The position numbers and the translations under genes are program-made. Positions 3,364-60,023 of a stretch of 64,000 bases of DNA are shown here, one piece after another. This stretch comes from Marinobacterium sp. (GTDB lineage Bacteria; Pseudomonadota; Gammaproteobacteria; Pseudomonadales; Balneatricaceae), in NCBI GenBank assembly GCA_030602245.1, contig JAUWAC010000005.1, forward strand, positions 1 to 64,000. The letters run 5' to 3'. Numbering within the stretch: the first letter of the stretch is position 1; every line of letters starts with the position of its first letter. Under the pieces are notes generated by a model. The model was not told where the DNA came from, did no database searches, and was given only the letters and a program-made list of their open reading frames with translations.

Positions 3364-4638
3364 ATGGATATGAACACTCAAGGGATGCCGCTGGAAGGGC
3401 TCCTGACCGTAGATCGCGATCGCCTCTGGAACACCTTGATGGAACAGGGAAAGATCGGCGAAACCGACAAGGGCGGGCTCAATCGCCAGGCATTGACCGA
3501 CCTGGACCGCCAGGCACGTGAGCTCTTTATCAGCTGGGGCAAGGAGGCCGGTTGCGAGGTTTCCATCGACCAGATCGGCAATATTTTTGTGCGCCGCCCG
3601 GGGGGGGATAACTCGCTGCCGCCGGTGATGACCGGCAGCCATATCGATACACAGCCCACCGGCGGCAAGTTTGATGGCTGCTTCGGCGTGATGGCTGGCC
3701 TCGAGTCGATCCGCCGCATGAACGATCTCGGCATCAAAACCAGGGCACCGGTAGAAGTGGTCGCCTGGACCAACGAGGAGGGCTGCCGTTTCCCGCCCTG
3801 CATGATGGGCTCTGGGGTATTCACCGGTGAATTTGAACTAGAACATACCTTGGCGATCAGAGATGCTGACGGCATCTCCGTCGGTGAAGCGCTCTCTAAG
3901 ATCGGCTTCGCCGGTGAAAAGCCTGTTCCCGGCCACCCGGTAGGGGCTTATTTTGAAGCTCATATCGAACAGGGGCCGATACTGGAAGATGCCGAGAAAA
4001 CTATCGGTGTGGTGATTGGCGCCCTCGGCCAGAAGTGGTTCGATCTCAGTATCCAGGGTGTTGAATCCCACGCAGGGCCCACGCCTATGTCACTGCGCCA
4101 CGATGCGGGCCTGGTGGCGGCTGAGTTGATCACCTTCGTGAACCGCACTGCTCTGGAACATGCGCCTCATGGCCGCGGCACTGTGGGCTGTCTGGATCTG
4201 TTCCCCGGCTCACGTAACGTGATTCCCGGCCAGGTCAACATGACCGTCGACTTCCGCCATCTGGAAGAGCAGGCGCTGGATGCCATGGTGAATGGGCTGA
4301 AAGCGAAAATCGTAGAGCTTGAAGAGTTGCATGGCGTTCAGGTCAGTCTAACACCCACGGCCGATTTTGCGCCGCTCTATTTCGCCGATAACTGCGTTTC
4401 CTACGTACGTGATGCGGCAGCAGCGCTGGGCTACGGGCATATGGATATCGTCAGCGGCGCCGGTCATGATGCCATATTCCTGGCGGAGAAAGCGCCCGCC
4501 GGTATGATCTTCGTGCCCTGCGAGGGAGGCATCAGCCATAACGAGATGGAACGTGCGGACGCCGATGATCTAGCGGCTGGTGCATCGGTGCTGCTGAATG
4601 CGCTGGTGAATGCGGCAGGAATTGAGGGGGGCAAATGA
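3364..4638 (+). CDS. Zn-dependent amidohydrolase of the M20 carbamoylase/ureidohydrolase family
   Basis: A 424-residue enzyme of the M20/M28-type family that includes N-carbamoyl-L-amino-acid hydrolase (HyuC), allantoate amidohydrolase (AllC), ureidoglycolate amidohydrolase and beta-ureidopropionase. The di-zinc ligand motifs are all visible in order: GSHIDTQP, GGKFDGCFGV, WTNEEGCRF, EAHIEQGP and the C-terminal GISHNE. The dimerisation (lid) domain is the middle portion with the VESHAGPTPMSLR motif, whose His and Arg contact substrate in relatives. These enzymes split C-N bonds of ureido or amide groups in the cytoplasm. The exact substrate cannot be decided from sequence. Neighbouring Liv transport genes and an amidase suggest catabolism of an imported ureido/amide nitrogen compound. 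Confidence 0.85.
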   Translation: MDMNTQGMPLEGLLTVDRDRLWNTLMEQGKIGETDKGGLNRQALTDLDRQARELFISWGKEAGCEVSIDQIGNIFVRRPGGDNSLPPVMTGSHIDTQPTGGKFDGCFGVMAGLESIRRMNDLGIKTRAPVEVVAWTNEEGCRFPPCMMGSGVFTGEFELEHTLAIRDADGISVGEALSKIGFAGEKPVPGHPVGAYFEAHIEQGPILEDAEKTIGVVIGALGQKWFDLSIQGVESHAGPTPMSLRHDAGLVAAELITFVNRTALEHAPHGRGTVGCLDLFPGSRNVIPGQVNMTVDFRHLEEQALDAMVNGLKAKIVELEELHGVQVSLTPTADFAPLYFADNCVSYVRDAAAALGYGHMDIVSGAGHDAIFLAEKAPAGMIFVPCEGGISHNEMERADADDLAAGASVLLNALVNAAGIEGGK

Positions 4639-6053
4639 GCAACAACCGATACGAAGAGATCGCCGATCTGACAGCCATGGAGCTGGGGCGTCTCTATCGT
4701 CTTGGCGAACTCTCTCCGCTGGACGCCACCCGCGCGGCGCTGGCACGGATCGAAGCCTGCAACACCGAGGTTAACGCCTACTGCCATGTGGCTGAGGAAT
4801 CAGCGCTGGAAAGCGCCAAAGCCTCGGAACAGCGCTGGCTCAAGGGCGAAGCGTTGGGGCCTATCGATGGTGTGCCCTGTTCGATCAAGGACCTGACCAA
4901 AGTCGCCGGTATGCCGATCCGCAGCGGCTCGCTGACCAGCACCGATGAGCTGGCTACAGAAGATGCACCGTTCAGTGCCCGCATGCGTGAGGCCGGCGCC
5001 GTGATCCTGGGTAAAACCACCACACCGGAGTTTGGCTGGAAGGGCGTCACCGACAGTCGTGCCACCGGTGTGACCCGCAACCCTTGGGATACCGGCAAAA
5101 CTGCTGGTGGTTCCTCCGGCGGCGCGGCGGCAGCGGCGGCGTTGAACATGGGTGTGCTGCACCAAGGCAGCGATGCCGGTGGCTCTATCCGTATACCCGG
5201 CGGCTTCTGCGGCGTGTTCGGTATCAAGCCAACCTTCGGTTATATCCCGCAGTGGCCGGCCAGCGCCATGACGACTCTGTCTCACCTCGGGCCCATGACT
5301 CGCACCGTTGAAGACAGCCTGTTGATGATGGATGCAGTAGCACAGCCGGATCACCGAGACTGGTACTCCGACCGCAAGTTTGATGGTTACTGGATCGATA
5401 TCCTCGACCGTCCGCTCGAAGGGCTGAAGATCGCTTACAGTCCAACCTTGGGCTACGTGGATGTGGATCCCGGCGTGCGTGCCTGTGTCGACCGAGCGGT
5501 AGCCACACTGATTGAGCTGGGTGCCGAGGTGGAAGAGGTGGATCCCGGTTTCAGCGATCCGCTGGAGATGTTCTCCACACTTTGGTTTGCCGGTGCGGGC
5601 AAGGTGGTCAGCAGTATGACCGAAGCGCAGCGGGGCCTTCTTGATCCGGGCTTTCGTGCCATTGGAGAGCAGGGCATGAAGATCGATATCATCGATTATA
5701 TGAAGGCGGTCGATGCGCGAGCTGCCCTAGGGATAAAAATGGACGAGTTCCATCAGCAGTACGATCTGCTGGTGACCCCGACTCTGCCAATCAAGGCCTT
5801 CGAAGCGGGTCGCGATACCACCGACGACAGTCAGAAATATTGGATGGAGTGGACGCCGTTCTCCTACCCCTTCAACCTGACGCAGCAACCTGCATCGACC
5901 TCACCCTGTGGCTTGGTGGATGGTTTGCCGGTTGGCCTGCAGATCGTTGGCGCCAAAGGCGCAGATGCGCTGGTGCTGAATGCCTGTCGTCGTTTTGAAA
6001 GAGCGCTGCCAATGCAGTGGCTGAGTCGACCAAAAGCTAGTGCCAAAGGCTGA
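4635..6053 (+). CDS. Amidase-signature family hydrolase
   Basis: A 472-residue member of the amidase signature family (GatA, AtzF and fatty-acid amide hydrolase relatives). The Ser-cisSer-Lys triad is recognisable: Lys in PCSIKDLTK, cis-Ser in the glycine/serine stretch GGSSGGAAAAAA, and the nucleophile Ser in SDAGGSIRIPGG. It hydrolyses a carboxamide to acid and ammonia. The ATG overlaps the stop of the preceding hydrolase by four bases and follows a GAGGGGGG tract, so the two enzymes are translationally coupled. They may act sequentially, for example a ureido bond cleavage followed by deamidation, but this is inference. GatA is unlikely because no gatC or gatB is adjacent. Confidence 0.87.
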   Translation: MSNNRYEEIADLTAMELGRLYRLGELSPLDATRAALARIEACNTEVNAYCHVAEESALESAKASEQRWLKGEALGPIDGVPCSIKDLTKVAGMPIRSGSLTSTDELATEDAPFSARMREAGAVILGKTTTPEFGWKGVTDSRATGVTRNPWDTGKTAGGSSGGAAAAAALNMGVLHQGSDAGGSIRIPGGFCGVFGIKPTFGYIPQWPASAMTTLSHLGPMTRTVEDSLLMMDAVAQPDHRDWYSDRKFDGYWIDILDRPLEGLKIAYSPTLGYVDVDPGVRACVDRAVATLIELGAEVEEVDPGFSDPLEMFSTLWFAGAGKVVSSMTEAQRGLLDPGFRAIGEQGMKIDIIDYMKAVDARAALGIKMDEFHQQYDLLVTPTLPIKAFEAGRDTTDDSQKYWMEWTPFSYPFNLTQQPASTSPCGLVDGLPVGLQIVGAKGADALVLNACRRFERALPMQWLSRPKASAKG

Positions 6054-6057
6054 TTCA

Positions 6058-6972
6058 ATGACTAAAAAGCTGCTTGGGCAGATCAGCGATATCGATCTGC
6101 GTCTGCTGAAAGTGTTTCGCACCGTGGTGGAGGCAGGTGGATTTGCCCAGGCGGAGGCGGAGCTCAACGTCAGCAGCTCGGCGATCAGTGCCAGCATGGC
6201 GGACTTGGAAAAGCGGCTCGGGCTTAGACTGTGTCAGCGCGGTCGCGCCGGCTTTGCCCTCACCGATGAGGGCCGGCAGGCGTACCGGGCGCTGCTGCAG
6301 CTGCATACCGCGCTGGACGGCTTCCGCACCGAGATAAACTCTATTCATCAACAGCTCAAGGGGGAACTGGTTATCGGTATTACCGATAACTTGGTGACTC
6401 TGCCGCATATGTCGGTGACACGGGCTCTGGCGGCGCTGAAGGCGCAGGGCCCTGATGTCAGTATCGACATCCGTATGCTGTCGCCTGGTATCGTCGAACG
6501 TGGAGTTGTCGATGGTCAGCTACATCTGGGGGTTGTGCCTCAGGTTCAGAAAGTTTCGGGGCTGGCGTATAACCCGCTATACAGCGAAACCTCGAACCTT
6601 TATTGCAGCTCCGGTCACCCGTTGTTTGCACACAGAGATGAGGCTATCAGCATCGAACTATTGGCCGAGCAGGAAGCGGTGGGGCAGAGCTTCGCGCTTT
6701 GCCCCGCTATGAAAAAGATGCTGGCGCAACTGAACGTTACGGCCAGGGCATCTGACCGGGAGGGAATAGCATTCATGATACTGACCGGGCTATATATTGG
6801 GTTTCTTCCAGATCATTACGCTGAACGCTGGGTGCGGTCGGGGCAGATGCGCTCTCTTTGCACTGAAAAAATGAGTTATGAAATTAAATATGCGGCAGTT
6901 ACTCGCAGGGGAATGAGGCCAAACATGGTCCTGGACACGTTCCTTCAGTCACTGGCGTTCAGCAAAGGTTAG
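6058..6972 (+). CDS. LysR-family transcriptional regulator
   Basis: A 304-residue regulator with an N-terminal winged helix-turn-helix (LLKVFRTVVEAGGFAQAEAE, then SSSAISASMADLEKRLGLRL) and a C-terminal periplasmic-binding-like effector domain starting near residue 95. An in-frame GTG at 6040 exists, but the ATG at 6058 has an AAAGG ribosome-binding site 8 bases upstream and lies 4 bases after the amidase stop, so I choose it. It lies in the same orientation as the enzymes, not divergent as most LysR genes are, so it may be a terminal gene of the operon it controls. Its inducer is unknown. Confidence 0.85.
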   Translation: MTKKLLGQISDIDLRLLKVFRTVVEAGGFAQAEAELNVSSSAISASMADLEKRLGLRLCQRGRAGFALTDEGRQAYRALLQLHTALDGFRTEINSIHQQLKGELVIGITDNLVTLPHMSVTRALAALKAQGPDVSIDIRMLSPGIVERGVVDGQLHLGVVPQVQKVSGLAYNPLYSETSNLYCSSGHPLFAHRDEAISIELLAEQEAVGQSFALCPAMKKMLAQLNVTARASDREGIAFMILTGLYIGFLPDHYAERWVRSGQMRSLCTEKMSYEIKYAAVTRRGMRPNMVLDTFLQSLAFSKG

Positions 6973-6988
6973 AAGTGATCTGTCTGCT

Positions 6989-7519
6989 CTAGCGCCTGAC
7001 CGGGCGCTTCTGCAGCTTGCGTTGCAGCGTGCGGCGGTGCATTCCGAGTGCGCGGGCGGTGGCCGAGATGTTGCCGTCGTGTTCCGACAGGACCTTCTGG
7101 ATATGTTCCCACTCGAGGCGATCGACCGACATCGGGTCGGCGCTGATCGGCTGTGCCGGGTCGGCGCTGTCCTGTGACAGCGCGGCCAGAATCTGGTCGG
7201 CGTCGGCCGGTTTGGGCAGGTAGTTCACGGCGCCGAGCTTGATCGCATCGACGGCGGTGGCGATGCTCGCGTAGCCGGTCAGAATCAGAATTCTCACTTC
7301 GGGGCTGATCGCCTTCAGGGCTTCAATCAGCTCCAGCCCCGACGGGCCCTCCATCTTCAGATCGACGCTCGCCAGCTGAGGCGGCTGCTGGCGCGCCTGC
7401 TCGATCGCTTCACCGACATTGCGCGCGACACTGACGTCATAGCCACGCCGCGTCAGGGCCCGGGACAGAACGCGGGTAAAGGTCGGGTCATCATCAACGA
7501 TCAGAAAGGGCGTGCTCAT
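6989..7519 (-). CDS. regA: Redox response regulator RegA/PrrA/RoxR
   Basis: A 176-residue two-domain response regulator. The receiver domain has the acidic pocket VDDDP (residues 8-12), phospho-acceptor Asp53 in SVDLKM, the TGYAS switch and LPKPA lysine. A short acidic/proline linker leads to a Fis-type helix-turn-helix (GNISATARALGMHRRTLQRK), close to the RegA/ActR/PrrA/RoxR signature. The family activates or represses genes for respiration, cytochrome oxidases and carbon or nitrogen metabolism according to redox state. The start overlaps the upstream regB stop by four bases, so the two are one operon. It is convergent with the LysR gene, with only 16 bases between stops. Confidence 0.9.
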   Translation of the reverse strand: MSTPFLIVDDDPTFTRVLSRALTRRGYDVSVARNVGEAIEQARQQPPQLASVDLKMEGPSGLELIEALKAISPEVRILILTGYASIATAVDAIKLGAVNYLPKPADADQILAALSQDSADPAQPISADPMSVDRLEWEHIQKVLSEHDGNISATARALGMHRRTLQRKLQKRPVRR

Positions 7520-8775
7520 GGCGTTGACTCCCTGTGGGCGGATGTGAGCGGCAGGCGGACTTCGGTCAGCGTACCGCCTGCGGGGTGGTTATACAGACGG
7601 ACGTCGCCATCCTGCTGCGCAAGGGTGGTGGCGGTCAGGAACAGGCCGATGCCCAGCCCCCGACCCTTGGTGGTCACGAACGGATGGCCCAGCGACTCCG
7701 AACGCTCCAGTGGCAGCCCCGGCCCGGTGTCACGGATCCGCAGCCACACCTGGGTTGCATCCCAATCCAGCTCGATGCTGATTTCATCGTTGCTGGCATC
7801 GACGGCATTGTTGAGCAGGTTGGTCAGCGCCTGTCGCAGCTGGGGCGTTGCATCGAGTACCGGAGCGGAACCGGCGCCGACCACATTGAGCCGGTAGCGC
7901 GCCTGCGGGCGCATCAGCTGCCACTGGTCGAGCAGCTGGTCCAGCATGTCGGTGACCGGCATCGGCTCGGCGCGGCCGGCTTCGCGGGCGCTGCGTGTCA
8001 TCGCCTGCAGCCGCTGCGCGCAGGCGTCGACCTGCTGGCGCAGCAGCGCGATATCCTCGGCCAGCTCCGGTTCGCGGTGCTCCGCCGCCATCTCGTTGAG
8101 CAGGATGCTCATCGTCGAAAGGGGGGTGCCCAGCTCATGGGCGGTGCCGGCGGCGAAACTGGCCAGCGAGACCAGTTGCTGGTCCTGCAGCCGGCGCTCA
8201 CGTTCGCGAATCAGACGGCCTTCCTGACGGCGCATGATCTGCTGCATGCGCACGATAAACCAGGTAATCAGCAGCACCGTGAACAGGAAGTTGAGCCACA
8301 TGCCGGTGATATGCAGGTCGAACAGTGCGTTCAGGCTGTGGCTGTGGGCGGTCGTGGGCGGCAGGACCGGCAGGTAATAGTGCAGCAGCGAGCTGTACAG
8401 CAGGATAACCAGCAGGGCCATGAGCCAGGTGTAGCGCCATGGCAGGGTCGCCGCCGAGATCAGCAGCGGCATCAGCAGCAGGAAAATGAACGGGTTGGTG
8501 GCGCCGCCGGTCTGGTAGATCAGCGCACCGTAGAGCACGGCATCGGCGCAGAGCTGGCTGAACAGCTCTGGTTCGGTCACCGGCCAGCGTGAATGCAGGC
8601 GGGCGTAGGTAAACAGGTTGACCAGTGCGATAACCGCCAGCGTTGCCGCCATCGGCCAGACCGCGACCGACGCCGCGAACACATAGATCGCCGTCAGCAG
8701 CATGGCGCAGATGCCGAACAGCGTCGCAACCCGGATATAGGTCAGCTGCAGCAGGGTCTCGTGATAGCCGGGCAT
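7516..8775 (-). CDS. regB: Redox sensor histidine kinase RegB/PrrB/RoxS
   Basis: A 419-residue membrane kinase counted from ATG 8775, which has GAGGA upstream. The longer frame to 8982 adds about 70 residues that lack family character and overlap the prfC leader. Six hydrophobic segments fill the N-terminal half. They include GGATNPF at residues 90-96, matching the GGxxNPF quinone-binding heptapeptide of RegB. The H-box is GTAHELGTPLST with phospho-His213. Cys252, in RQQVDACAQRL, lies 39 residues later, where RegB has its redox-active cysteine. N-box (NLLNNAVDAS) and G-boxes (DTGPGLP, GRGLGIGL) complete the ATPase domain. It should phosphorylate the RegA encoded immediately downstream. Confidence 0.9.
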   Translation of the reverse strand: MPGYHETLLQLTYIRVATLFGICAMLLTAIYVFAASVAVWPMAATLAVIALVNLFTYARLHSRWPVTEPELFSQLCADAVLYGALIYQTGGATNPFIFLLLMPLLISAATLPWRYTWLMALLVILLYSSLLHYYLPVLPPTTAHSHSLNALFDLHITGMWLNFLFTVLLITWFIVRMQQIMRRQEGRLIRERERRLQDQQLVSLASFAAGTAHELGTPLSTMSILLNEMAAEHREPELAEDIALLRQQVDACAQRLQAMTRSAREAGRAEPMPVTDMLDQLLDQWQLMRPQARYRLNVVGAGSAPVLDATPQLRQALTNLLNNAVDASNDEISIELDWDATQVWLRIRDTGPGLPLERSESLGHPFVTTKGRGLGIGLFLTATTLAQQDGDVRLYNHPAGGTLTEVRLPLTSAHRESTP

Positions 8776-8986
8776 CGGGAATAGGGTCCTCGTGTCGAAC
8801 GACACGCCATTATAGCCCCCGACCGGGCGCTCGGCATGAGACACTTGGTCGCACCCCGGGGCTGCTGTCGGCGCTGCAATTGTTCCGCGCGCGCGGATCG
8901 GCGAGAATAGCACCCTTTTGAATCGATCACTTTCCGACCGGCTGTGTGCGGGTCGGGCGAGTTGCCAATCTGGAAGCACCAAAGCG

Positions 8987-10570
8987 ATGTCACACGCCGT
9001 TCAGCAGGAAGTCGCCAAGCGACGCACCTTCGCCATCATCTCCCACCCCGACGCCGGTAAGACGACGATCACCGAAAAGCTGTTGCTGATCGGTCAGCTG
9101 ATCCAGGTCGCGGGTACCGTGAAAGGGCGCGGCAGCGATCGTCACGCCACGTCGGACTGGATGAGCATGGAACAGGAGCGCGGGATCTCCATCACGTCAT
9201 CGGTGATGCAGTTTCCCTACAAGGAGCGCATCGTCAACCTGCTCGATACGCCCGGGCACGAAGACTTCTCCGAGGATACCTATCGCACGCTGACCGCGGT
9301 GGACTCGGCGCTGATGGTGGTCGACGGTGCCAAGGGTGTCGAGGAGCGAACCATCAAGCTGATGGAAGTCTGCCGCCTGCGCGACACGCCGATTTTCTCG
9401 TTCGTCAACAAGCTGGACCGCGATATCCGTGACCCGATCGAGCTGCTGGATGAGATCGAGGAGGTGCTGAAGATCGAGGCCGCGCCGATCAACTGGCCGA
9501 TCGGTTCGGGCAAGCGCTTCAAGGGGGTCTATAACCTCTATACCGACACGTTGCACCTGTTCACACCGGGGCAGGGACACACGCTGGCGGAGCCGAAGCT
9601 GATTCAGGGGCTGGACTCCGATGCCGCCCGTGAACTGCTGGAAGATGACTACGACGACTTCGTTGACGAGATCGAGCTGGTACGCGGTGCGACCCACCCC
9701 TGGGATCAGGACGCCTATCTGGCGGGCAAGCTGACGCCGGTGTATTTCGGTACTGCGCTGGGCAATTTCGGCGTGCGTGAGATGCTCGACGATTTCGTCG
9801 AGTGGGCACCGGCACCGCCGGCCCGTGCCACCGAAACCCGCGCGGTGGAATCCAGCGAAGAGACGTTCAGCGGTTTTGTCTTCAAGATCCAGGCGAACAT
9901 GGACCCGAAGCATCGTGACCGTATCGCGTTCATGCGTATCTGCTCCGGCAGCTACACCCGCGGCATGAAGATGCGCCACGTCCGCATCGGCAAGGATGTG
10001 AAGATCGCGGACGCCGTGACCTTCCTTGCCGGTGACCGTGAAAACGTGGAAACCGCCTGGTCCGGCGACATCATCGGCCTGCACAACCACGGTACGATCC
10101 AGATCGGTGACACCTTCACCGAGGGCGAGTCGCTCAAGTTCACCGGTATTCCGCACTTTGCGCCCGAGATGTTCCGGCGCGTGCGCCCGACCGACCCGCT
10201 GAAGATGAAGCAGCTGCAGAAAGGTCTGCAGCAGCTGTCGGAAGAGGGCGCGGTGCAGCTGTTCCAGCCGCTGAAAAACAATGATCTGATTCTGGGTGCC
10301 GTCGGTCAGCTGCAGTTTGAGGTGGTGGTGTTCCGGCTCAAGGACGAATACAAGGTCGAGTGCGTCTACGAGGGCATCAGCGTGGCGACGGCGCGCTGGG
10401 TCGAGTGCAAGGACAACAAGATGCTGGCCGAGTTTGAGCGTAAGGCGTATGACAACCTGGCCTATGACGGTGCCGGCCTGCTGACCTATCTGGCGCCGAC
10501 CCGGGTCAACCTGTCGCTGACCGAAGAGCGCTGGCCCGATATCGCGTTCCGCGCAACGCGCGAGCACTGA
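8987..10570 (+). CDS. prfC: Peptide chain release factor 3
   Basis: RF3 is the translational GTPase that recycles RF1 and RF2 from the ribosome after peptide release. The protein is 527 residues from ATG 8987 (E. coli RF3 is 529). The G-domain motifs are visible: G1 [10 protein letters not shown]3 DTPGHEDF and G4 NKLDRD. The frame extends upstream to 8918, but the [20 protein letters not shown] start matches RF3 N-termini. It is divergent from regB; the 211 bases between the two starts must carry both promoters. Confidence 0.95.
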
Positions 10571-10593
10571 GGTCCGGCCTGTCCGGCCTGTCC

Positions 10594-10625
10594 GGGCTGG
10601 CGTGCCGCTGACGCCGCGCCAGCCC
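10594..10625 (+). terminator. Stem-loop after prfC, no U-tract
   Basis: GGGCTGGCG at 10594-10602 pairs perfectly with CGCCAGCCC at 10617-10625 around a 14-base loop. It lies 23 bases after the prfC stop. No T-run follows, so it is either a weak or factor-assisted terminator or an RNA 3'-end stabiliser. Just before it lies a short repeated GTCCGGCCT motif. Confidence 0.4.
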
Positions 10626-10728
10626 CCGCCGTACCCTGCACCGGTACCCGCTGTGGTGTCGGGATACGCCGCCGGTTGCTGCCCGATCGCGCATTCGGCG
10701 TGCGCGCGCTTTGTGCCATACTCCTGCC

Positions 10729-11505
10729 ATGCTGATTGATACCCACTGTCATCTTGATTTCCCCGCCTTTGATGGCTGGCGTGACGCGGCGATCGCCCGT
10801 GCCCGCGCGCTTGGCGTCACGGCGATTGTCGTGCCCGGTGTCAGCGCCGAGCATTGGGAGGCTGTGTTGCGGCTGTGTCAGCACGGGGATGGTGTTCAAC
10901 TCTATCCGGCGCTGGGGCTGCACCCCTGCTTCATGGCTCAGCATCGGCCGGAGCACCTGCAACGCCTGCAGCATGCGGTCGAGGCGCAGCGTGAGCGACT
11001 GGTGGCGATCGGCGAGATCGGGCTCGATTTTCAGATTGATGCTGCCGATCGACAGGCACAGATCGAGCTGCTGTCAGCGCAGCTGAAGATCGCAAAAAAC
11101 GCTGATCTGCCGGTACTGCTGCATGTGCGCAAGGCGCACGATCAGGTGCTCAGTCTGCTGCGACGGCTGGCGCTGCCGCGTGGCGGTATCGTCCACGCGT
11201 TCTCCGGCAGTGAGCAGCAGGCACGGCAGTATGCGCAGCTCGGTTTCAGGCTCGGCTTCGGGGGGGCGATCAGCTATGCGCGGGCCACCCGGCTGCGGCG
11301 GTTGGCAGCGGAGTTGCCGCTGGAGTGGCTGGTGCTGGAGACCGATGCGCCGGATATGCCGTTGAGCGGCTGGCGCGACGAACCCAACCGTCCGCAGCGG
11401 GTGGCCGAGGTCGCTAATATTATCGCCGACCTGCGCGGGATATCGGCACAGGAGGTGGGGCAGACAACGAGCGCCACGGCCCGTCGTCTGCTGGCACTTC
11501 ATTGA
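10729..11505 (+). CDS. TatD-family metal-dependent hydrolase (YjjV-like)
   Basis: A 258-residue TIM-barrel metallohydrolase of the TatD DNase family. Metal-ligand motifs are in order: THCHLDF (residues 5-11), GEIGLDF, LLHVRKAH, VHAFSGS and ETDAPDMP. TatD proteins are 3'-5' exonucleases/DNases acting in the cytoplasm. The start at ATG 10729 begins the protein at the HxH strand as in relatives; an upstream in-frame TTG at 10711 is possible but adds nothing recognisable. The 3' end overlaps the convergent lipoprotein gene by seven bases. Confidence 0.88.
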   Translation: MLIDTHCHLDFPAFDGWRDAAIARARALGVTAIVVPGVSAEHWEAVLRLCQHGDGVQLYPALGLHPCFMAQHRPEHLQRLQHAVEAQRERLVAIGEIGLDFQIDAADRQAQIELLSAQLKIAKNADLPVLLHVRKAHDQVLSLLRRLALPRGGIVHAFSGSEQQARQYAQLGFRLGFGGAISYARATRLRRLAAELPLEWLVLETDAPDMPLSGWRDEPNRPQRVAEVANIIADLRGISAQEVGQTTSATARRLLALH

Positions 11506-23693: not shown

Positions 23694-24440
23694 ATGCCTC
23701 CTACCGACAAGCACGCCAAATACAAACGTATACTGCTGAAACTGAGCGGCGAAGCGCTGATGGGCGAAGAGAACTTTGGTATCGATCCCAAGGTGCTCAA
23801 TCGCGTCGCGCTGGAGATTGGCCAGCTCGTGGGCATCGGAGTTCAGGTCGGGATGGTGATCGGCGGTGGCAACCTGTTCCGCGGTGCGGCGCTGAGTGCG
23901 GCCGGGCTGGATCGGGTCACCGGGGATCACATGGGAATGCTGGCGACGGTAATGAACGCCCTGGCGATGCGTGAAGCGCTGGAGCGTTGCAACATTGCAA
24001 CCCGCATCATGTCCGCGATTCCGATGAGCGGGGTGGTGGATCACTACGACCGCCGCAACGCCATGCGCTACCTGAATCAGGGAGATGTGGTAATCTTTGC
24101 CGCCGGCACCGGCAACCCGTTCTTCACGACCGACTCGGCGGCCTGTCTGCGCGGCATCGAAGTGGAAGCCGACGTGGTGCTGAAGGCCACCAAGGTCGAC
24201 GGCGTGTTTACCGCCGATCCGATGAAGGACCCGAACGCGAAGCGTTATACTCACCTCAGCTTTGACGAGGTGCTGGAGAAGCAGCTCGGGGTGATGGATA
24301 TGACCGCCATCTGCCTGACCCGCGACCACAACATGCCGGTACGTGTTTTCAACATGAACAAGCATGGGGCGCTCGTGAACCTCGTGGTCGGAGGTGACGA
24401 GGGTACCCTGATTGACTGCGGTCCTGCCGCTGGAGAATAA
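23694..24440 (+). CDS. pyrH: UMP kinase
   Basis: A 248-residue amino-acid-kinase-fold enzyme that makes UDP from UMP. Motifs are [14 protein letters not shown] at the phosphate-binding start, [10 protein letters not shown] and the [13 protein letters not shown] nucleotide site. GGAGA lies 7 bases before the ATG at 23694. It lies just upstream of frr, separated by one base, as in nearly all gammaproteobacteria. Confidence 0.97.
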
Positions 24441-24441
24441 G

Positions 24442-24999
24442 ATGATCAGTGAGATAGTGTCCGACGCCGAAGCGCGCATGAAGAAAAGTATCGAGTCGTT
24501 GACCGAGCACTTCAAGAAGATCCGCACGGGACGTGCATCTCCGGCAATCCTGGATTCGGTGCAGGTGTCCTACTACGGCTCGATGATGCCGATTCAGCAG
24601 GTGGCCAACGTCAGCGTCGAAGATGCGCGCACGCTGATGATCAACCCCTGGGAAAAGAAAATGGTGCCGGAGATCGAGAAAGCGATCATGAAGTCCGATC
24701 TCGGTCTGAATCCGACCACCAGCGGTGACGTGATTCGCGTTCCGATGCCGGCGCTGACCGAGGAAACCCGCAAGGGCTATATCCGTCAGGCGCGTCTGGA
24801 AGCTGAAAACGCCCGCGTTGCGATTCGCAATATCCGTCGTGATGCCAACGGTGATTTCAAGGATCTGCTCAAGGAGAAGGAGATCACCGAGGACGAAAGC
24901 CGTCGCGGCGAGGATCAGATCCAGAAAATCACCGACAAGTACGTGGGTGAAGTCGACGCGCTGCTGGCGCAGAAAGAAACCGATCTGATGGAAATCTGA
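24442..24999 (+). CDS. frr: Ribosome recycling factor
   Basis: RRF splits post-termination ribosomes with EF-G. From ATG 24442 it is 185 residues, exactly the E. coli length, with [20 protein letters not shown] and the C-terminal [20 protein letters not shown]. The frame opens earlier at 24412 inside pyrH, but TGGAGAATAAG precedes the chosen ATG at normal spacing. The gene is followed by a terminator. Confidence 0.97.
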
Positions 25000-25005
25000 C
25001 AAACG

Positions 25006-25038
25006 CCGGAGCGGCACGGGGTGTCGCTCCGGTGTTTT
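25006..25038 (+). terminator. Intrinsic terminator after frr
   Basis: CCGGAGCG (25006-25013) pairs with CGCTCCGG (25025-25032), loop of 11 bases, then TGTTTT. It is 6 bases after the frr stop and ends just before uppS, so uppS expression needs read-through or a promoter nearby. Confidence 0.7.
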
Positions 25039-25049
25039 CATGCCTGCCC

Positions 25050-25814
25050 ATGTCCGAATCCCGCATCCCGAAGCCTTCCACCGGAGGGCAGCCGCCGCGT
25101 CATGTCGCGATCATCATGGACGGCAACAACCGCTGGGCCAAGCAGCGCCATCTGCCGGCGCTCGCCGGTCACAAGGCCGGTGTCGACAGTCTGCGCGGTG
25201 TCATTGAAGGCTGCATCGAAGCCGGTGTTGAAGTGTTGACCGTGTTTGCCTTCTCCAGCGAAAACTGGCGTCGTCCGGCGCTTGAAGTGCGTGGCCTGAT
25301 GGAGCTGTTTCGTCTGGCGCTGGATCGCGAGGCGGCCAAGCTGCTCAAAAACGATATCCGTCTGCGCGTGATCGGCGATCGCTCCCGTTTCAGCGAAGAT
25401 CTGCAACGCCGTATCGAAAAAGCCGAAGCGCTGACCCGCGACTGTTCCCGTCTGCAATTGAACGTGGCCGCCAACTACGGTGGTCAGTGGGATATTGCGC
25501 AGGCGGCGCGGCGCCTCGCACAGCGCTGTGTCGACGGCGAGCTGACGCCGGATCAGATCGACGCCGACTGCGTCGATGCCGAGATCTGCCTGGCCGAGCT
25601 GCCGCGGCCCGATCTCTGTATCCGTACCGGTGGCGAGAAGCGCATCAGTAACTTCCTGATCTGGCAGTTCGCCTATACGGAGCTCTATTTCTCCGATCTC
25701 TACTGGCCCGATTTCGGGCGCGACGCGATGCGCGAGGCGATTGCCGACTTCTGTCGCCGCGAACGCCGTTTCGGCAAAACCAGCGAACAGATCGAGGCGC
25801 AGAAGGGTGATTAA
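25050..25814 (+). CDS. uppS: Undecaprenyl diphosphate synthase
   Basis: A 254-residue cis-prenyltransferase that extends farnesyl diphosphate to the C55 carrier lipid for peptidoglycan, O-antigen and capsule. Family motifs are HVAIIMDGNNRWAKQR (catalytic Asp), FAFSSENWRRP, PDLCIRTGGEKRISNF and the final FGKTSEQIE. The start at ATG 25050 lacks a strong ribosome-binding site, so the exact start is less certain. The stop overlaps the cdsA GTG start by eight bases. It consumes isoprenoid precursors, which matters because the MEP genes usually found in this block are missing. Confidence 0.95.
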   Translation: MSESRIPKPSTGGQPPRHVAIIMDGNNRWAKQRHLPALAGHKAGVDSLRGVIEGCIEAGVEVLTVFAFSSENWRRPALEVRGLMELFRLALDREAAKLLKNDIRLRVIGDRSRFSEDLQRRIEKAEALTRDCSRLQLNVAANYGGQWDIAQAARRLAQRCVDGELTPDQIDADCVDAEICLAELPRPDLCIRTGGEKRISNFLIWQFAYTELYFSDLYWPDFGRDAMREAIADFCRRERRFGKTSEQIEAQKGD

Positions 25815-26616
25815 ACAGCGTATTCTGACCGGTGTGGTACTGGCGGTTGCGGTGCTGTCGGCGGTGTTCCTGCTGTCGGCGGATCTGTTTGCGCTGGGAG
25901 CCGGTGCCGTGGTTGTCATGGGCGCTCGGGAGTGGGCGAATCTGTCGGCGCTTGCGGGCGTTGCGCAGTGGCTCTATGCCGCACTCGTCGCGGCGCTGCT
26001 GCTGGGGCTGCACTTCGTCGCCGGCGCACAGGCATTGCCCTGGGTGCTGGGAGCGGCGTTTGTGTTCTGGCTCTGGGCCTGCGTTCTGATTCTGCGCTAC
26101 CCCGGCGGCAGCGGGTTTCACAGCCGTGTCGCACGCCTGCTGATCGGGCTGGCCGTGCTGGTGCCGAGCTGGCTGGCGCTGGTGGGGCTGAAGACGCATG
26201 CCGCTGCGCCGCTGGCGCTGGTGATGCTGCTGTTGCTGGTCTGGGGGGCGGATACCGGCGCCTTCTGTGCCGGCAAACTGTTGGGGCGGCGCAAGATGAT
26301 TCCCTCGGTAAGTCCCGGTAAAACCGTGGAAGGCTTGTACGGCGGTCTGGCCACCTGCGTGCTGCTCGGGCTGGGGATTGGTCTGTGGCGCGAACTTCCC
26401 ACAGAGGGGTTGGTCTATCTGGTGGTGCTGTCGCTGCTGACCGGTCTTGCCGCCGTGTTTGGTGATCTGTTCGAGAGTCTGTTCAAGCGCGAACGCGGTA
26501 TCAAGGACAGCGGTGCACTGCTGCCGGGGCACGGCGGTATTCTCGACCGCATCGACAGCCTGACGGCGGCCGCGCCCGTCTTCATGCTTGGTTTGTACTG
26601 GTTGCCGGCGCTTTAG
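25807..26616 (+). CDS. cdsA: Phosphatidate cytidylyltransferase
   Basis: A 269-residue inner-membrane enzyme making CDP-diacylglycerol. It has about eight membrane segments and the signature SVSPGKTVEGLYGG followed near the C-terminus by DSGALLPGHGGILDRIDS. The start is set at GTG 25807 because GAGG lies 9 bases upstream and the protein then begins MIKQRILTGVV. The longer frame to 25741 lies entirely in uppS. Only 17 bases separate the cdsA stop from rseP; in most gammaproteobacteria dxr sits between them. Confidence 0.93.
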   Translation: MIKQRILTGVVLAVAVLSAVFLLSADLFALGAGAVVVMGAREWANLSALAGVAQWLYAALVAALLLGLHFVAGAQALPWVLGAAFVFWLWACVLILRYPGGSGFHSRVARLLIGLAVLVPSWLALVGLKTHAAAPLALVMLLLLVWGADTGAFCAGKLLGRRKMIPSVSPGKTVEGLYGGLATCVLLGLGIGLWRELPTEGLVYLVVLSLLTGLAAVFGDLFESLFKRERGIKDSGALLPGHGGILDRIDSLTAAAPVFMLGLYWLPAL

Positions 26617-26633
26617 GCCGGCTCGGGGAGTCA

Positions 26634-27989
26634 ATGGGTATTCTTCAGACGCTGATCGCGACCATCGTCACACTGGGGCTGCTGGTGACGATCCACGAGT
26701 GGGGCCACTTCTGGGTGGCCCGCCGCTGTGGCGTCAAGGTGCTGCGCTTCTCCGTCGGCTTCGGTAAGCCGATCTGGATGCGTAAGGGGCGCGATGGCAC
26801 CGAGTATGCCGTCGCCATGATTCCGCTCGGTGGCTATGTGCGCATGCTCGATGAGCGTGAGGGCGAGGTGCCGGCTGCGTTGCGGCATCAGGCGTTCAAC
26901 AACAAGCCGGTGCTGCAGCGAATGGCAATTGTGGCCGCGGGGCCGGTGGTCAACCTGCTGTTTGCTGTGCTGGCGTACTGGTTCCTGTTTGTCTGGGGCG
27001 TCACGGCCGTGGTGCCGGTGATCGGCGATGTGCGTGAGCAGTCGCTGGCTGCGCAGGCGGGCGTGCCGGCGGGGGTCGAGCTGCTGGAAATCGACGGTCA
27101 CAAGGTGCAATCCTGGGATGAGGTCAATCTGCGTCTGGCGGCCCGTGTCGGCGAGAGCGGCATGCTCGAGCTGCTGGCCGGGGAACCGGCGCGCGGTACA
27201 GCGCGGCGCTACGAGATCCGGCTGCAGGACTGGGGTGTCGATCTGGAGCGTGAGAGCCCGATCAGCGCGCTGGGGCTGATTCCCTATCGTCCGCAGCTGC
27301 CGCCGGTCATCGGTGCGCTGTCGGAAGAGGGCGCGGCGCTGCGCGACGGTCTGCGCAGCGGCGATCGGGTGCTGTCGGTGGATGGCGCGCCGATCGATGA
27401 GTGGCTGGAGCTGGTCGAGCACATTCGTGCTGCGCCCGGCCAGCCGTTGGTGCTTGAAGTCGAACGCGATCAGCAGGTGTTCGAAATGACCCTGACGCCG
27501 GCCCGCCGTGTCGACGATCAGGGCCAGGTCTACGGCTTCGTGGGCGCCGGCGTCGAAATGGTCGAGTGGCCGCCGGAAATGCTGCGTGACGTGCGTCACG
27601 GACCGATCGAGTCGCTCTGGATCAGTGTCGAAAAAACCGCGCAGATGATCGGCTTGACGCTTGAATCCATTGGCAAAATGATCGCCGGTGCGATCTCGGT
27701 AAAAAACTTGAGTGGCCCGATAACGATTGCTAAAGTGGCGGGGGCTTCGGCGGCCTCTGGGCTCGAGTCTTTTGTCAGCTTCCTTGCCTACCTGAGTATC
27801 AGTCTCGGTGTTCTCAATCTGTTGCCGATTCCGATGCTTGATGGCGGGCATCTGATGTATCAGCTCGTGGAACTGGTGCGCGGACGACCGGTCAGCGAGA
27901 AGGTGCAGATGATGGGGTTGCGGATCGGCATGGCGATGCTGTTCAGCTTGATGGCGCTGGCCGTCATCAACGACATCGCCCGCCTGTGA
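26634..27989 (+). CDS. rseP: Site-2 protease RseP
   Basis: A 451-residue inner-membrane zinc metalloprotease that cleaves the anti-sigma factor RseA and signal-peptide remnants. The active site HEWGH is at residues 21-25. Two periplasmic PDZ domains follow (about 115-190 and 215-300). The third zinc ligand lies in LLPIPMLDGGH. GGGGAG precedes the ATG. It lies between cdsA and bamA in the envelope-biogenesis run, with dxr absent on its left. Confidence 0.96.
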   Translation: MGILQTLIATIVTLGLLVTIHEWGHFWVARRCGVKVLRFSVGFGKPIWMRKGRDGTEYAVAMIPLGGYVRMLDEREGEVPAALRHQAFNNKPVLQRMAIVAAGPVVNLLFAVLAYWFLFVWGVTAVVPVIGDVREQSLAAQAGVPAGVELLEIDGHKVQSWDEVNLRLAARVGESGMLELLAGEPARGTARRYEIRLQDWGVDLERESPISALGLIPYRPQLPPVIGALSEEGAALRDGLRSGDRVLSVDGAPIDEWLELVEHIRAAPGQPLVLEVERDQQVFEMTLTPARRVDDQGQVYGFVGAGVEMVEWPPEMLRDVRHGPIESLWISVEKTAQMIGLTLESIGKMIAGAISVKNLSGPITIAKVAGASAASGLESFVSFLAYLSISLGVLNLLPIPMLDGGHLMYQLVELVRGRPVSEKVQMMGLRIGMAMLFSLMALAVINDIARL

Positions 27990-43959: not shown

Positions 43960-44256
43960 GTGTATCGCTGGTTGCTGCTGACACTGCTGCTGATGCTGGC
44001 CGGACTCCAGTACCGCCTCTGGTTCGGAGAGGCCAACCTACGCGAGGTCTGGCTGCTTGAAGAGCAGATTGAGCAGCAGCGGATCGAAAACGCACGCCTG
44101 ATCGAACGCAATAAGCGGCTCGAAGCGGAGGTGCGCGATCTGAAACAGGGCCTCGCTGCCCTTGAAGAACGCGCGCGCAGCGAGATGGGCATGGTGCAGG
44201 AGGGCGAAACCTTCTTCCAGCTGATCGAGCCTGAACAGGAGACACGACAGCGTTGA
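43960..44256 (+). CDS. ftsB: Cell division protein FtsB
   Basis: A 98-residue bitopic divisome protein. It has a short cytoplasmic start, one membrane segment (WLLLTLLLMLAGLQYRLWFG), then a periplasmic coiled coil (about residues 30-72) and the conserved ARSEMGMVQEGETFFQ tail. FtsB forms the FtsQBL complex. GTG 43960 follows GAGG at suitable spacing. The TGA overlaps truD, so ispD and ispF, usually next, are missing. Confidence 0.93.
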   Translation: MYRWLLLTLLLMLAGLQYRLWFGEANLREVWLLEEQIEQQRIENARLIERNKRLEAEVRDLKQGLAALEERARSEMGMVQEGETFFQLIEPEQETRQR

Positions 44257-45308
44257 GCAACCTTGTCCATGAGCCAGTCTGGCTGCACGGCAAACCTTCG
44301 GTCGAAGCCCTGCTGAGGGCGGAGCCGGAGGATTTTCGCGTTACCGAAAATCTCGGCTTTGAGCCCGACGGGGAGGGCGAACACCAGTTTCTCTATATCC
44401 GTAAGCGCGGCGAAAACACCGACTGGGTGGCACGTCAGCTGGCCCACTTCTGTCAGGTCAGCCCGCGCGATGTGAGTTATGCCGGCAAGAAGGATCGCCA
44501 CGCCGTCACCGAGCAGTGGTTCAGCGTGCATCTGCCGGGCCACCGACGCAATCTCAACTGGCAGCTGTTCGGCGGTGATAGCATCGAGGTGCTGCGCGCC
44601 GAGCGGCACTCACGCAAGCTGCGTCTGGGCGCTCTCGCGGGCAACCGTTTTGAGCTGCGCCTGAAACAGGTCAGCGACGGCGCAGAGCTGCAGGCCCGCT
44701 TTGCGCGACTCGCTGCCGGCGTGCCGAATTACTTTGGCGAGCAGCGTTTTGGCCATCATTTTGGCAATATCGAGAAAGGGATCGCCCTGCTTGAAGGGCG
44801 CCTGAAAGAGCGCCAGCGGCACAAGAAAGGGCTCTACATCTCCGCCGTGCGCTCGTGGCTGTTCAACGAGCTGCTGTCGCGCCGGATCGAGAGCGGGTAC
44901 TGGGATCGCCTGCTCGAAGGTGACGTGTTGATGATCAATGGTCGTCAGAGCTGTTTCCGCTATGATGGCGATCCGACCGTGGCGCAGCGGCTGGCAGCCG
45001 GTGAGCTGAATCTGACCGGCCCGCTTTGGGGCAGTGGCGAGCTGATGACCGACGCGCAGGCGCAGGCGTTTGAACGGGATGCGCTCGCGCCCCATCAGGC
45101 GGTGTGCCAGCGTCTGGAGGCGATCGGGCTGAAGCAGGAGCGTCGCGCGTTGCGGCTGATACCCGGAGCGCTTGCGATCGAACGAGAGAGTGACCGACAA
45201 TGGCGGCTGATGTTTGATCTGCCGGCCGGTGCATTTGCCACCAGTGTGTTGCGCGAGCTGTGTTGCTGGCGCCTGCCCGCTGCCGACGGTCGACCGGAAC
45301 AAGAGTAA
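44253..45308 (+). CDS. truD: tRNA pseudouridine(13) synthase TruD
   Basis: A 351-residue pseudouridine synthase acting on U13 of tRNA-Glu. The catalytic Asp is in [14 protein letters not shown] near residue 80. Other family motifs are [17 protein letters not shown] and the TRUD insertion domain in the middle (residues about 155-300). The frame begins at TTG 44253, overlapping the ftsB stop (TTGA). No strong ribosome-binding site is visible, so coupling to ftsB translation is likely. Confidence 0.93.
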
Positions 45309-59734: not shown

Positions 59735-59811
59735 GCGCCCGTAGCTCAGCTGGATAGAGTACCTGGCTACGAACCAGGCGGTCAGAGGTTCGAATCCTCT
59801 CGGGCGCGCCA
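59735..59811 (+). tRNA. tRNA-Arg (anticodon ACG), copy 1
   Basis: A 77-base tRNA. Acceptor GCGCCCG pairs with CGGGCGC, then G and CCA. Anticodon stem CCTGG/CCAGG encloses loop CTACGAA with ACG at 59769-59771. A34 should be deaminated to inosine, so it reads CGU, CGC and CGA. It lies 4 bases after tRNA-Ser. Confidence 0.97.
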
Positions 59812-59842
59812 ACGACGACAACAGCGGTAAAATCGTAAGTGT

Positions 59843-59919
59843 GCGCCCGTAGCTCAGCTGGATAGAGTACCTGGCTACGAACCAGGCGGTCAGAGGTTCG
59901 AATCCTCTCGGGCGCGCCA
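59843..59919 (+). tRNA. tRNA-Arg (anticodon ACG), copy 2
   Basis: Identical over 77 bases to copy 1, with ACG at 59877-59879. A 31-base unrelated spacer separates it from copy 1. Confidence 0.97.
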
Positions 59920-59946
59920 CCCTCTGATTTTTCCGTTTCAGGTCAC

Positions 59947-60023
59947 GCGCCCGTAGCTCAGCTGGATAGAGTACCTGGCTACGAACCAGGCGGTCAGAGG
60001 TTCGAATCCTCTCGGGCGCGCCA
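59947..60023 (+). tRNA. tRNA-Arg (anticodon ACG), copy 3
   Basis: Identical over 77 bases to copies 1 and 2, with ACG at 59981-59983. It is 27 bases after copy 2 and 50 bases before thiI, a tRNA-modification gene. Confidence 0.97.

Follow-up and report, generated by a model that had tools for sequence, protein, structure and literature searches.

The bacterial family of Balneatrix, Marinobacterium and Nitrincola-type organisms has most likely exchanged the MEP pathway of isoprenoid synthesis for the mevalonate pathway. According to our preferred reading, to which we assign a probability of about 0.85, an ancestor took up a mevalonate operon, the genes serving the MEP pathway only were then lost, and dxs was kept for vitamin synthesis, its product having a shortened loop.

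The window, i.e., the whole stretch of 64,000 nucleotides that was analysed, belongs to a draft genome (the source genome, G000; 2.39 Mb, 26 contigs, 90.67% complete), whose relatives include Balneatrix and Marinobacterium. The pertinent features are listed below; the last two lie outside the window.

24412..24999, + strand: frr (ribosome-recycling factor), left neighbour; bounds from the open reading frame, named by its position in the block
25032..25814, + strand: uppS, undecaprenyl diphosphate synthase; open reading frame, and a tblastn match of E. coli UppS in the rseP surroundings
25807..26616, + strand: cdsA, phosphatidate cytidylyltransferase; 199.7 bits against the E. coli-type model NF008635 of NCBIfam, below its cut-off of 385, and found with E. 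coli CdsA by tblastn
26617..26633, + strand: junction of 17 bases, the site of dxr in other families of the order; from the sequence
26634..27989, + strand: rseP, site-2 protease; NCBIfam score above cut-off
43960..44256, + strand: ftsB, left flank of the ispD-ispF deletion; NCBIfam score above cut-off
44253..45308, + strand: truD, right flank of the ispD-ispF deletion; NCBIfam TIGR00094 score above cut-off
6010-7803 of locus L181 (contig C11), - strand: dxs; NCBIfam dxs model
4636-10839 of locus L009 (contig C26): mevalonate operon of six genes, HMGR-IDI2-HMGS-MVK-PMK-MVD

The initial annotation had stated that dxr is missing between cdsA and rseP, and both the sequence and a profile search bear this out. 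The stop codon of cdsA (TAG) and the start of rseP (ATG at 26634) leave a gap of 17 bases, in which inspection revealed no remnant of dxr, and the DXR profile PF02670 found no match in the source genome. The order uppS-cdsA-dxr-rseP, which had been taken as the usual one, is valid for the order to which the source genome belongs: in its other families dxr lies immediately 5' of rseP in 7/7 genomes (G043 shows no more than a fragment). It is not valid for E. coli K-12, where dxr is found between frr and uppS instead of between cdsA and rseP. In the window this position is likewise free of dxr, since just 32 bases separate the frr stop from the uppS reading frame. The product of uppS is a continuing consumer of isoprenoids. 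Upstream of rseP, dxr was seen in none of the 19 genomes of two dxr-less families, which include all 15 of the Marinobacterium-type family.

The loss is not restricted to dxr. The missing ispD and ispF, also claimed initially, are confirmed: in the window the ends of ftsB and truD share 4 bases and neither ispD nor ispF separates them, and ispD, ispF, ispG and ispH were found in 0/15 family genomes, as against 7/7 genomes of other families. For ispE the count is 0/13 family genomes searched. A draft gap does not explain the missing MEP genes, since two of the family genomes, G009 and G012, are single contigs. That dxr had merely escaped the draft assembly or moved elsewhere might be suspected from the fragmented and incomplete source genome, but is hardly conceivable and was rejected, barring a dxr too divergent for PF02670: this profile is also without match in the five family genomes drawn in the survey of the order (three listed at 100% completeness, G012 a single contig), the site 5' of rseP is empty throughout the family, and five further MEP genes are missing from the same genomes.

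An unrelated reductoisomerase, DRL or type II DXR, occurs in Brucella. With such an enzyme the MEP pathway could still run, the mevalonate operon being an addition, and the presence of dxs would be in line with this. DRL alone, however, could not complete a pathway that lacks IspD, IspE, IspF, IspG and IspH, and we have rejected this possibility, too, as extremely improbable.

The initial annotation had proposed to look for mevalonate and MEP genes in the entire genome. This search yielded one mevalonate operon and dxs, and no match to any of DXR, IspD, IspE, IspF, IspG and IspH. The operon, together with the absence of dxr and ispD to ispH, supports the earlier suggestion that a mevalonate route replaced the MEP pathway. 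The presumed systematic deletion of MEP genes needs to be qualified: it applies to the isoprenoid-only genes dxr and ispD to ispH, but the branch-point gene dxs is still present.

Within the operon, HMG-CoA synthase (519.1 bits), type 2 IPP isomerase (355.6 bits) and diphosphomevalonate decarboxylase (310.4 bits) each exceed their NCBIfam cut-offs. HMG-CoA reductase reaches 284.2 bits with TIGR00533 over residues 8-345, below the cut-off of 441.8; it shares 64% identity with HMGR from the Paracoccus zeaxanthinifaciens cluster. The two GHMP kinases have mevalonate kinase as best match (139.4 and 155.7 bits, cut-off 163.05). Because both stay below the cut-off and both resemble mevalonate kinase most, their putative roles as MVK and PMK are assigned from their places in the operon and from the comparison with P. 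zeaxanthinifaciens. The order mvaA-idi-hcs-mvk-pmk-mvd is kept in 15/15 family genomes, with about 5 kb inserted ahead of MVD in G003 and G004. In the MVD tree (FastTree) the family falls into a clade with Hydrogenovibrio/Thiomicrospira types with a support of 0.90, the next split having 0.06. In the corresponding HMGR tree the family is not monophyletic: a Lentisphaeria MAG is the partner of Motiliproteus, and next to Balneatrix and G011 stand Streptomyces and a Corynebacterium MAG. The deep nodes of both trees are weak. A single transfer is therefore not proven, and no donor of the operon can be named.

In the order, dxr was detected in 133 of 145 genomes surveyed. MVD exceeded the cut-off in exactly 9 of the 145, all of them without dxr. 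Four of these nine represent a second family (f39) with a different cluster, and the HMG-CoA synthase of the Marinobacterium-type family, used as query, found no match within the f39 stretches. The order presents a clean family-wide pathway swap with both states side by side, which reveals the genes that are lost and those that are kept.

The retained DXS of the source genome scores 748 bits against the general dxs model (cut-off 465.95). DXS is present in 14/15 family genomes (G005 is without) and is encoded in an xseB-ispA-dxs operon in 14/14. DXP is the precursor of pyridoxal phosphate (via PdxJ) and of thiamin thiazole (via ThiG). With PdxJ in 15/15 and ThiG in 13/15 family genomes, the likely role of the retained dxs is to provide DXP for the synthesis of vitamins B6 and B1. 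A different purpose, e.g., a family-specific product made from DXP, could be imagined for G008 and G010, which have DXS without a ThiG match; it appears improbable, as DXP-requiring PdxJ is never missing and dxs resides in its ordinary operon, not in a new cluster. PdxJ alone, on the other hand, does not force the retention of DXS, since all four f39 genomes have PdxJ and none has a real DXS.

The family-type DXS, a set of 21 made up of 14 from family genomes, 6 named ones and MAG5, has a conserved core. The enzyme of the source genome differs at only 5 of 179 sites that are near-invariant in the comparison set (n=19), and the residues at E. coli positions 49, 80, 152, 181, 299, 370, 398, 427, 431 and 478 are unchanged in 21/21; H49, H299, D427 and H431 are among the DXS residues named in PMC12633525. 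In a tree from which loop columns and gappy columns had been removed, the 21 separate from all others with a bootstrap of 100. The Porticoccaceae DXS of G160, to which E. coli DXS aligns only up to residue 360 and which contains an X, was used for loop lengths and loop sites (n=20) but neither for the tree nor for the conservation count. The DXS of a Shimia MAG and the second copy of G110 belong to neither set.

What the family-type DXS lacks is most of the loop at E. coli positions 198-240: its loop measures 10-32 residues versus 46-52 in the 20 comparison enzymes. The genomes of 41 of 80 loci were chosen for DXS and dxr searches, and 40 of them were searched. Among Lactobacillales, Lactococcus lactis served as a control and gave a DXS match. 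The loop is also lost in P. zeaxanthinifaciens and in a Nevskia MAG (completeness not stated) that has apparently switched to mevalonate, further in an extra DXS copy of G110, a genome that carries dxr and a full-length DXS besides, and on two Paraburkholderia replicons, presumably in extra copies, too. A counter-example is the Shimia MAG (completeness not stated), which has mevalonate genes, no dxr match and a DXS loop of full length.

The meaning of this loss can be seen in two ways. The loop may have eroded neutrally, being dispensable anywhere, so that its absence would tell nothing about the MEP pathway. We give this an even chance. Loop-deleted DXS of P. aeruginosa showed comparable kinetics in vitro (PMC10504544), that of E. 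coli a 1.5-fold lower kcat (PMC13082120), and PMC10504544 describes the loop as poorly conserved. The spread of loop lengths in the family is what drift would give, NCBIfam contains a short DXS model (NF008968) to which the source enzyme aligns in a single stretch, and the Shimia MAG retains its loop without a dxr match. Against mere erosion stand the conserved sites in the loop of the 20 comparison enzymes (K/R228 in 20/20, E231 and G235 in 19/20 each), its retention in 129/129 readable dxr-bearing genomes of the order, and its repeated loss in separate lineages while the core stayed conserved. Alternatively, and with somewhat less confidence, the loop (about 198-245 in E. coli) might be a MEP-specific element, e.g., one that mediates IDP/DMADP feedback or the docking of a downstream partner, dispensable for making DXP and lost once DXS was uncoupled from isoprenoid synthesis, be it in mevalonate-switched lineages or in extra copies. 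If so, the orphan DXS would be a naturally deregulated enzyme.

The history that we prefer would begin with horizontal acquisition of a complete operon of the mvaA-idi-hcs-mvk-pmk-mvd type by the ancestor of the family. Once expressed, it would have produced DMAPP and all of the IPP, starting from acetoacetyl-CoA. The MEP-only genes dxr, ispD, ispE, ispF, ispG and ispH would then have disappeared, leaving the tight cdsA-rseP and ftsB-truD junctions behind. The dxs gene would have been kept because its product also feeds the PdxJ and ThiG branches, and DXS, freed from isoprenoid supply, may for this reason have lost most of its surface loop while keeping the catalytic core. Gene presence and absence, gene orders, loop shortening and core conservation are the observed part of this explanation.

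MEP flux is described as being controlled chiefly by DXS, which is subject to feedback inhibition (PMC13001223); the enzyme is also regarded as a drug target (PMC13082120). With the retained dxs, the role of DXS in vitamin synthesis can be viewed apart from its role in isoprenoid synthesis, and the natural short-loop enzymes offer material for asking what the loop does. Fosmidomycin-type DXR inhibitors should have no effect on the family. In the open-licence literature we found nothing on the mevalonate pathway in Nitrincolaceae or on mevalonate versus MEP routes in Oceanospirillales, nor any report of natural loop loss in an orphan DXS; the mevalonate cluster of Marinobacterium, in contrast, is already known.

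This cluster has been published for M. jannaschii, M. litorale and M. stanieri, and also for Ca. Liberibacter (PMC5291501), and the source genome is related to that genus. As far as it was consulted, that account describes the cluster without treating the loss of MEP genes, the retained dxs or the DXS loop. The closest parallel is P. zeaxanthinifaciens, whose cluster serves as a working mevalonate module (PMC6742980). Its operon comprises these six genes in an unchanged order, the proteins being 42-64% identical (tblastn). As in the family, dxr gave no match there and the DXS has a short loop. It differs in being an alphaproteobacterium with a DXS of alphaproteobacterial descent, which implies that the loop was lost there separately. 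Loci of Hydrogenovibrio, Thiomicrorhabdus, Dichelobacter and Salinisphaera share with the family the mevalonate decarboxylase and, in those searched, the lack of a dxr match; where DXS was searched for, no match came up at E <= 1e-15, unlike in the family. The short DXS subfamily NF008968 (PRK12315; 582 positions) matches the source DXS with 444.6 bits, which fails its cut-off of 510, and the general model scores higher. For crystallography, residues 207-245 of the P. aeruginosa or 198-240 of the E. coli enzyme were removed (PMC13082120). The natural gap of the family DXS is at the same place as in the loop-deleted constructs 8a29 and 8a8y; the source enzyme aligns to 8a29 in a single stretch (835 bits), to native E. 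coli 2o1s in two. These constructs are engineered, whereas the loss in the family is natural and affects a DXS without its downstream pathway.

The frr-uppS-cdsA-rseP-bamA block is present in the window, as judged from its list of open reading frames, and dxr is indeed missing from it, as the initial annotation had claimed: the 17 bases that separate cdsA from rseP hold no remnant of the gene, and no match to PF02670 (DXR) was found anywhere in the genome of this Marinobacterium sp. (G000). The companion claim, absence of ispD and ispF, stands as well; neither is present at the ftsB-truD junction.

Genes bordering the two junctions in the window
..-26616, cdsA (end)
26634-.., rseP (begin)
43960-44256, ftsB, running straight into truD
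44253-.., truD (begin), overlapped by the end of ftsB

The gene arrangement taken as the norm is not that of E. coli, which has frr-dxr-ispU-cdsA-rseP. It does apply to the taxonomic order of G000 in placing dxr directly upstream of rseP, as seen in 7/7 genomes of other families, with G043 showing just a fragment of the gene. Elsewhere in the window (59735-60023), three tRNA-Arg(ACG) genes follow a tRNA-Ser in tandem.

The proposal that a mevalonate route has replaced the MEP genes is supported for the Balneatrix/Marinobacterium/Nitrincola-type family. A mevalonate operon is found in 15/15 of its genomes, and the MEP genes are absent, with one exception: the genome-wide search yielded mevalonate genes and neither dxr nor ispD-H, yet dxs is still there. 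A search for GHMP kinases revealed three adjacent genes on contig 26 of G000. The search gave three matches per genome throughout the 13 family genomes covered (G000-G012), against one in five of the six genomes from other families and two in the sixth, G017.

Mevalonate operon of G000 (contig 26, stretch L009)
4636-5673, HMGR, NCBIfam match with a score under cut-off
5670-6713, IDI, type 2, NCBIfam cut-off passed
6729-7895, HMGS, NCBIfam cut-off passed
7895-8905, MVK, NCBIfam match under cut-off
8877-9812, second GHMP kinase, NCBIfam match under cut-off
9844-10839, MVD, NCBIfam cut-off passed

The gene order is identical in all 15 genomes; in two (G003, G004) about 5 kb intervenes ahead of MVD. 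A putative family-B DNA polymerase gene (L009 10844-13171) lies downstream of the operon in 13/15.

The nearest named MVD is that of Marinobacterium alkalitolerans (70%); the next named matches, from Nitrincola, Motiliproteus, Neptuniibacter and Neptunomonas, are placed among the family genomes in the MVD tree. NCBI taxonomy assigns Balneatrix to Balneatrichaceae and lists the checked species of Marinobacterium and Nitrincola under Oceanospirillaceae; Nitrincolaceae is presumably the GTDB name. The MVD on a contig of a Porticoccaceae MAG (L107) also nests inside the family; that genome has dxr and a full-length DXS, and the contig is probably misbinned. With 2.39 Mb, G000 is smaller than the seven congeners listed (G001-G007; 3.5-5.6 Mb), a shortfall exceeding what its completeness of 90.67% explains.

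Across the order, 12/145 genomes gave no DXR match: the five family genomes drawn, four of a second family (f39), and G043, G125 and G130. G043 has a DXR fragment 5' of rseP; the listed completeness of the other two is 83% and 74%, respectively. MVD exceeded the cut-off in exactly nine of the 145, which are the two dxr-less families; weaker matches under cut-off occurred in five further genomes. In a set of 26 (15 of the family, four f39, seven others), IspD, IspF, IspG and IspH are absent in 19/19 of the two families and present in 7/7 others; IspE is absent in the 13/13 family genomes (G000-G012) covered by the GHMP-kinase search.

In f39 the equipment is different. The cluster of G143 (L042 7613-12567) encodes MVD and a PMK-like kinase, together with a 753-aa protein in which a class II HMGR is fused to mevalonate kinase, and an IDI of type 1. 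Genomes G050, G087 and G116 share the kinase and decarboxylase genes, which are arranged differently in G116 (L042-L045). In the MVD tree, f39 stands far from the family and groups with types from Wenzhouxiangella, Lysobacterales, Nevskia and Salinisphaera, so replacement most likely took place twice, separately, within the order. A real DXS is missing in 4/4 f39 genomes, two of which show weak matches only; PdxJ is found in 4/4 and ThiG in 1/4.

Both the observation of the missing dxr and its reading as a mevalonate replacement hold. Pathway swaps of this kind are known, and the present one has partly been published: PMC5291501 describes a mevalonate cluster in three Marinobacterium species. 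What is new is the retained DXS with its short loop.

DXS (PF13292) was detected in 14/15 family genomes, always within xseB-ispA-dxs, and that of G000 scores over the dxs cut-off; G005 (87% complete) gave no PF13292 match. PdxJ is present in 15/15 and ThiG in 13/15 (no match in G008 and G010); in view of the known pathways, supply of DXP for vitamins B6 and B1 is therefore the likely reason for keeping DXS.

The PF13292 alignment of the family DXS has a break that runs from roughly position 191 to 230 of the profile. The loop segment (E. coli 198-245) comprises 10-32 residues in 21 family-type DXS (14 family genomes, six named organisms and MAG5) versus 46-52 in 20 comparison sequences. The latter are E. 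coli DXS, the main copy of G110, ten sequences from dxr-bearing genomes (in G043 the gene is fragmentary) and, taken irrespective of dxr, plasmid copies from P. aeruginosa, Mycetohabitans and six alphaproteobacteria. In the order survey, 138/145 genomes had DXS at E <= 1e-20, the seven without such a match being the four f39 genomes, G075, G103 and G152. All five family genomes drawn have a short DXS; in 132 genomes it spans the loop segment, and all of these except G043, G125 and G130 gave a DXR match (129 genomes). In G034 a contig edge cuts DXS ahead of the segment. The dxr-bearing G110 has, beside its full-length DXS, a second, short and divergent copy (L217 8901-10676), at 33% to the E. 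coli enzyme and with a loop segment of 15 residues.

Ten catalytic and cofactor positions are unchanged in 21/21 family-type DXS; judged by sequence, the core is conserved and the loop gone. These enzymes deviate at 5-21 each of 179 near-invariant sites (defined on 19 comparison sequences), those of G000 and P. zeaxanthinifaciens at five. Identity to E. coli DXS outside the loop is 51-58% versus 58-63% in 11 gammaproteobacterial comparison sequences, which points to a modestly accelerated core evolution. The loop may simply have been free to erode. It is, however, not well described as merely variable, since K/R228 (20/20), E231 (19/20) and G235 (19/20) are conserved in the comparison set. A function in feedback by IDP/DMADP (feedback on DXS is stated in PMC13001223) or in partner docking is conceivable, at somewhat less than even odds.

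The survey headed INDEPENDENCE covered 40 genomes reached via mevalonate decarboxylase loci; 13 had DXS (E <= 1e-15) and 37 no dxr match (E <= 1e-8). Among these 37, DXS is short in nine (six of family type, MAG5, P. zeaxanthinifaciens, a Nevskia MAG), full-length in one (a Shimia MAG) and missing in 27; the three dxr-bearing genomes all have full-length DXS. In a DXS tree built without the loop columns, the 21 family-type sequences split from all others (bootstrap 100), P. zeaxanthinifaciens joins Shimia (99) within the sampled Rhodobacterales (97), and the Nevskia MAG falls elsewhere, with E. coli (68). These separate positions argue for at least three losses of the loop in mevalonate lineages, the Nevskia case being a single MAG. 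The Shimia MAG is either a counter-example or an incomplete genome.

Short DXS is also present on two Paraburkholderia replicons (L210 6902-14454, L211 6734-15848), flanked by acetolactate synthase large subunit and 2-oxoglutarate dehydrogenase E1 (neighbours scanned in L210 only); as a guess, these three consecutive thiamin-diphosphate enzymes could form a back-up set of targets that protects from an inhibitor of this enzyme class. The plasmid dxs of Mycetohabitans endofungorum (L224 1-3384) adjoins phosphonopyruvate decarboxylase and 2-aminoethylphosphonate aminotransferase genes, and its product retains a loop of 46 residues. In three Rhodobacterales (L212, L213, L226) a plasmid dxs lies immediately 3' of the puf photosynthesis genes.

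What evolution removed here, crystallographers remove by design: the same segment is deleted from E. coli (198-240) and P. aeruginosa DXS (207-245), which changes the kinetics little, according to PMC13082120 and PMC10504544. The DXS of G000 aligns with the shortened P. aeruginosa chain 8a29 in a single stretch (835 bits), whereas with native E. coli DXS (2o1s) it aligns in two.
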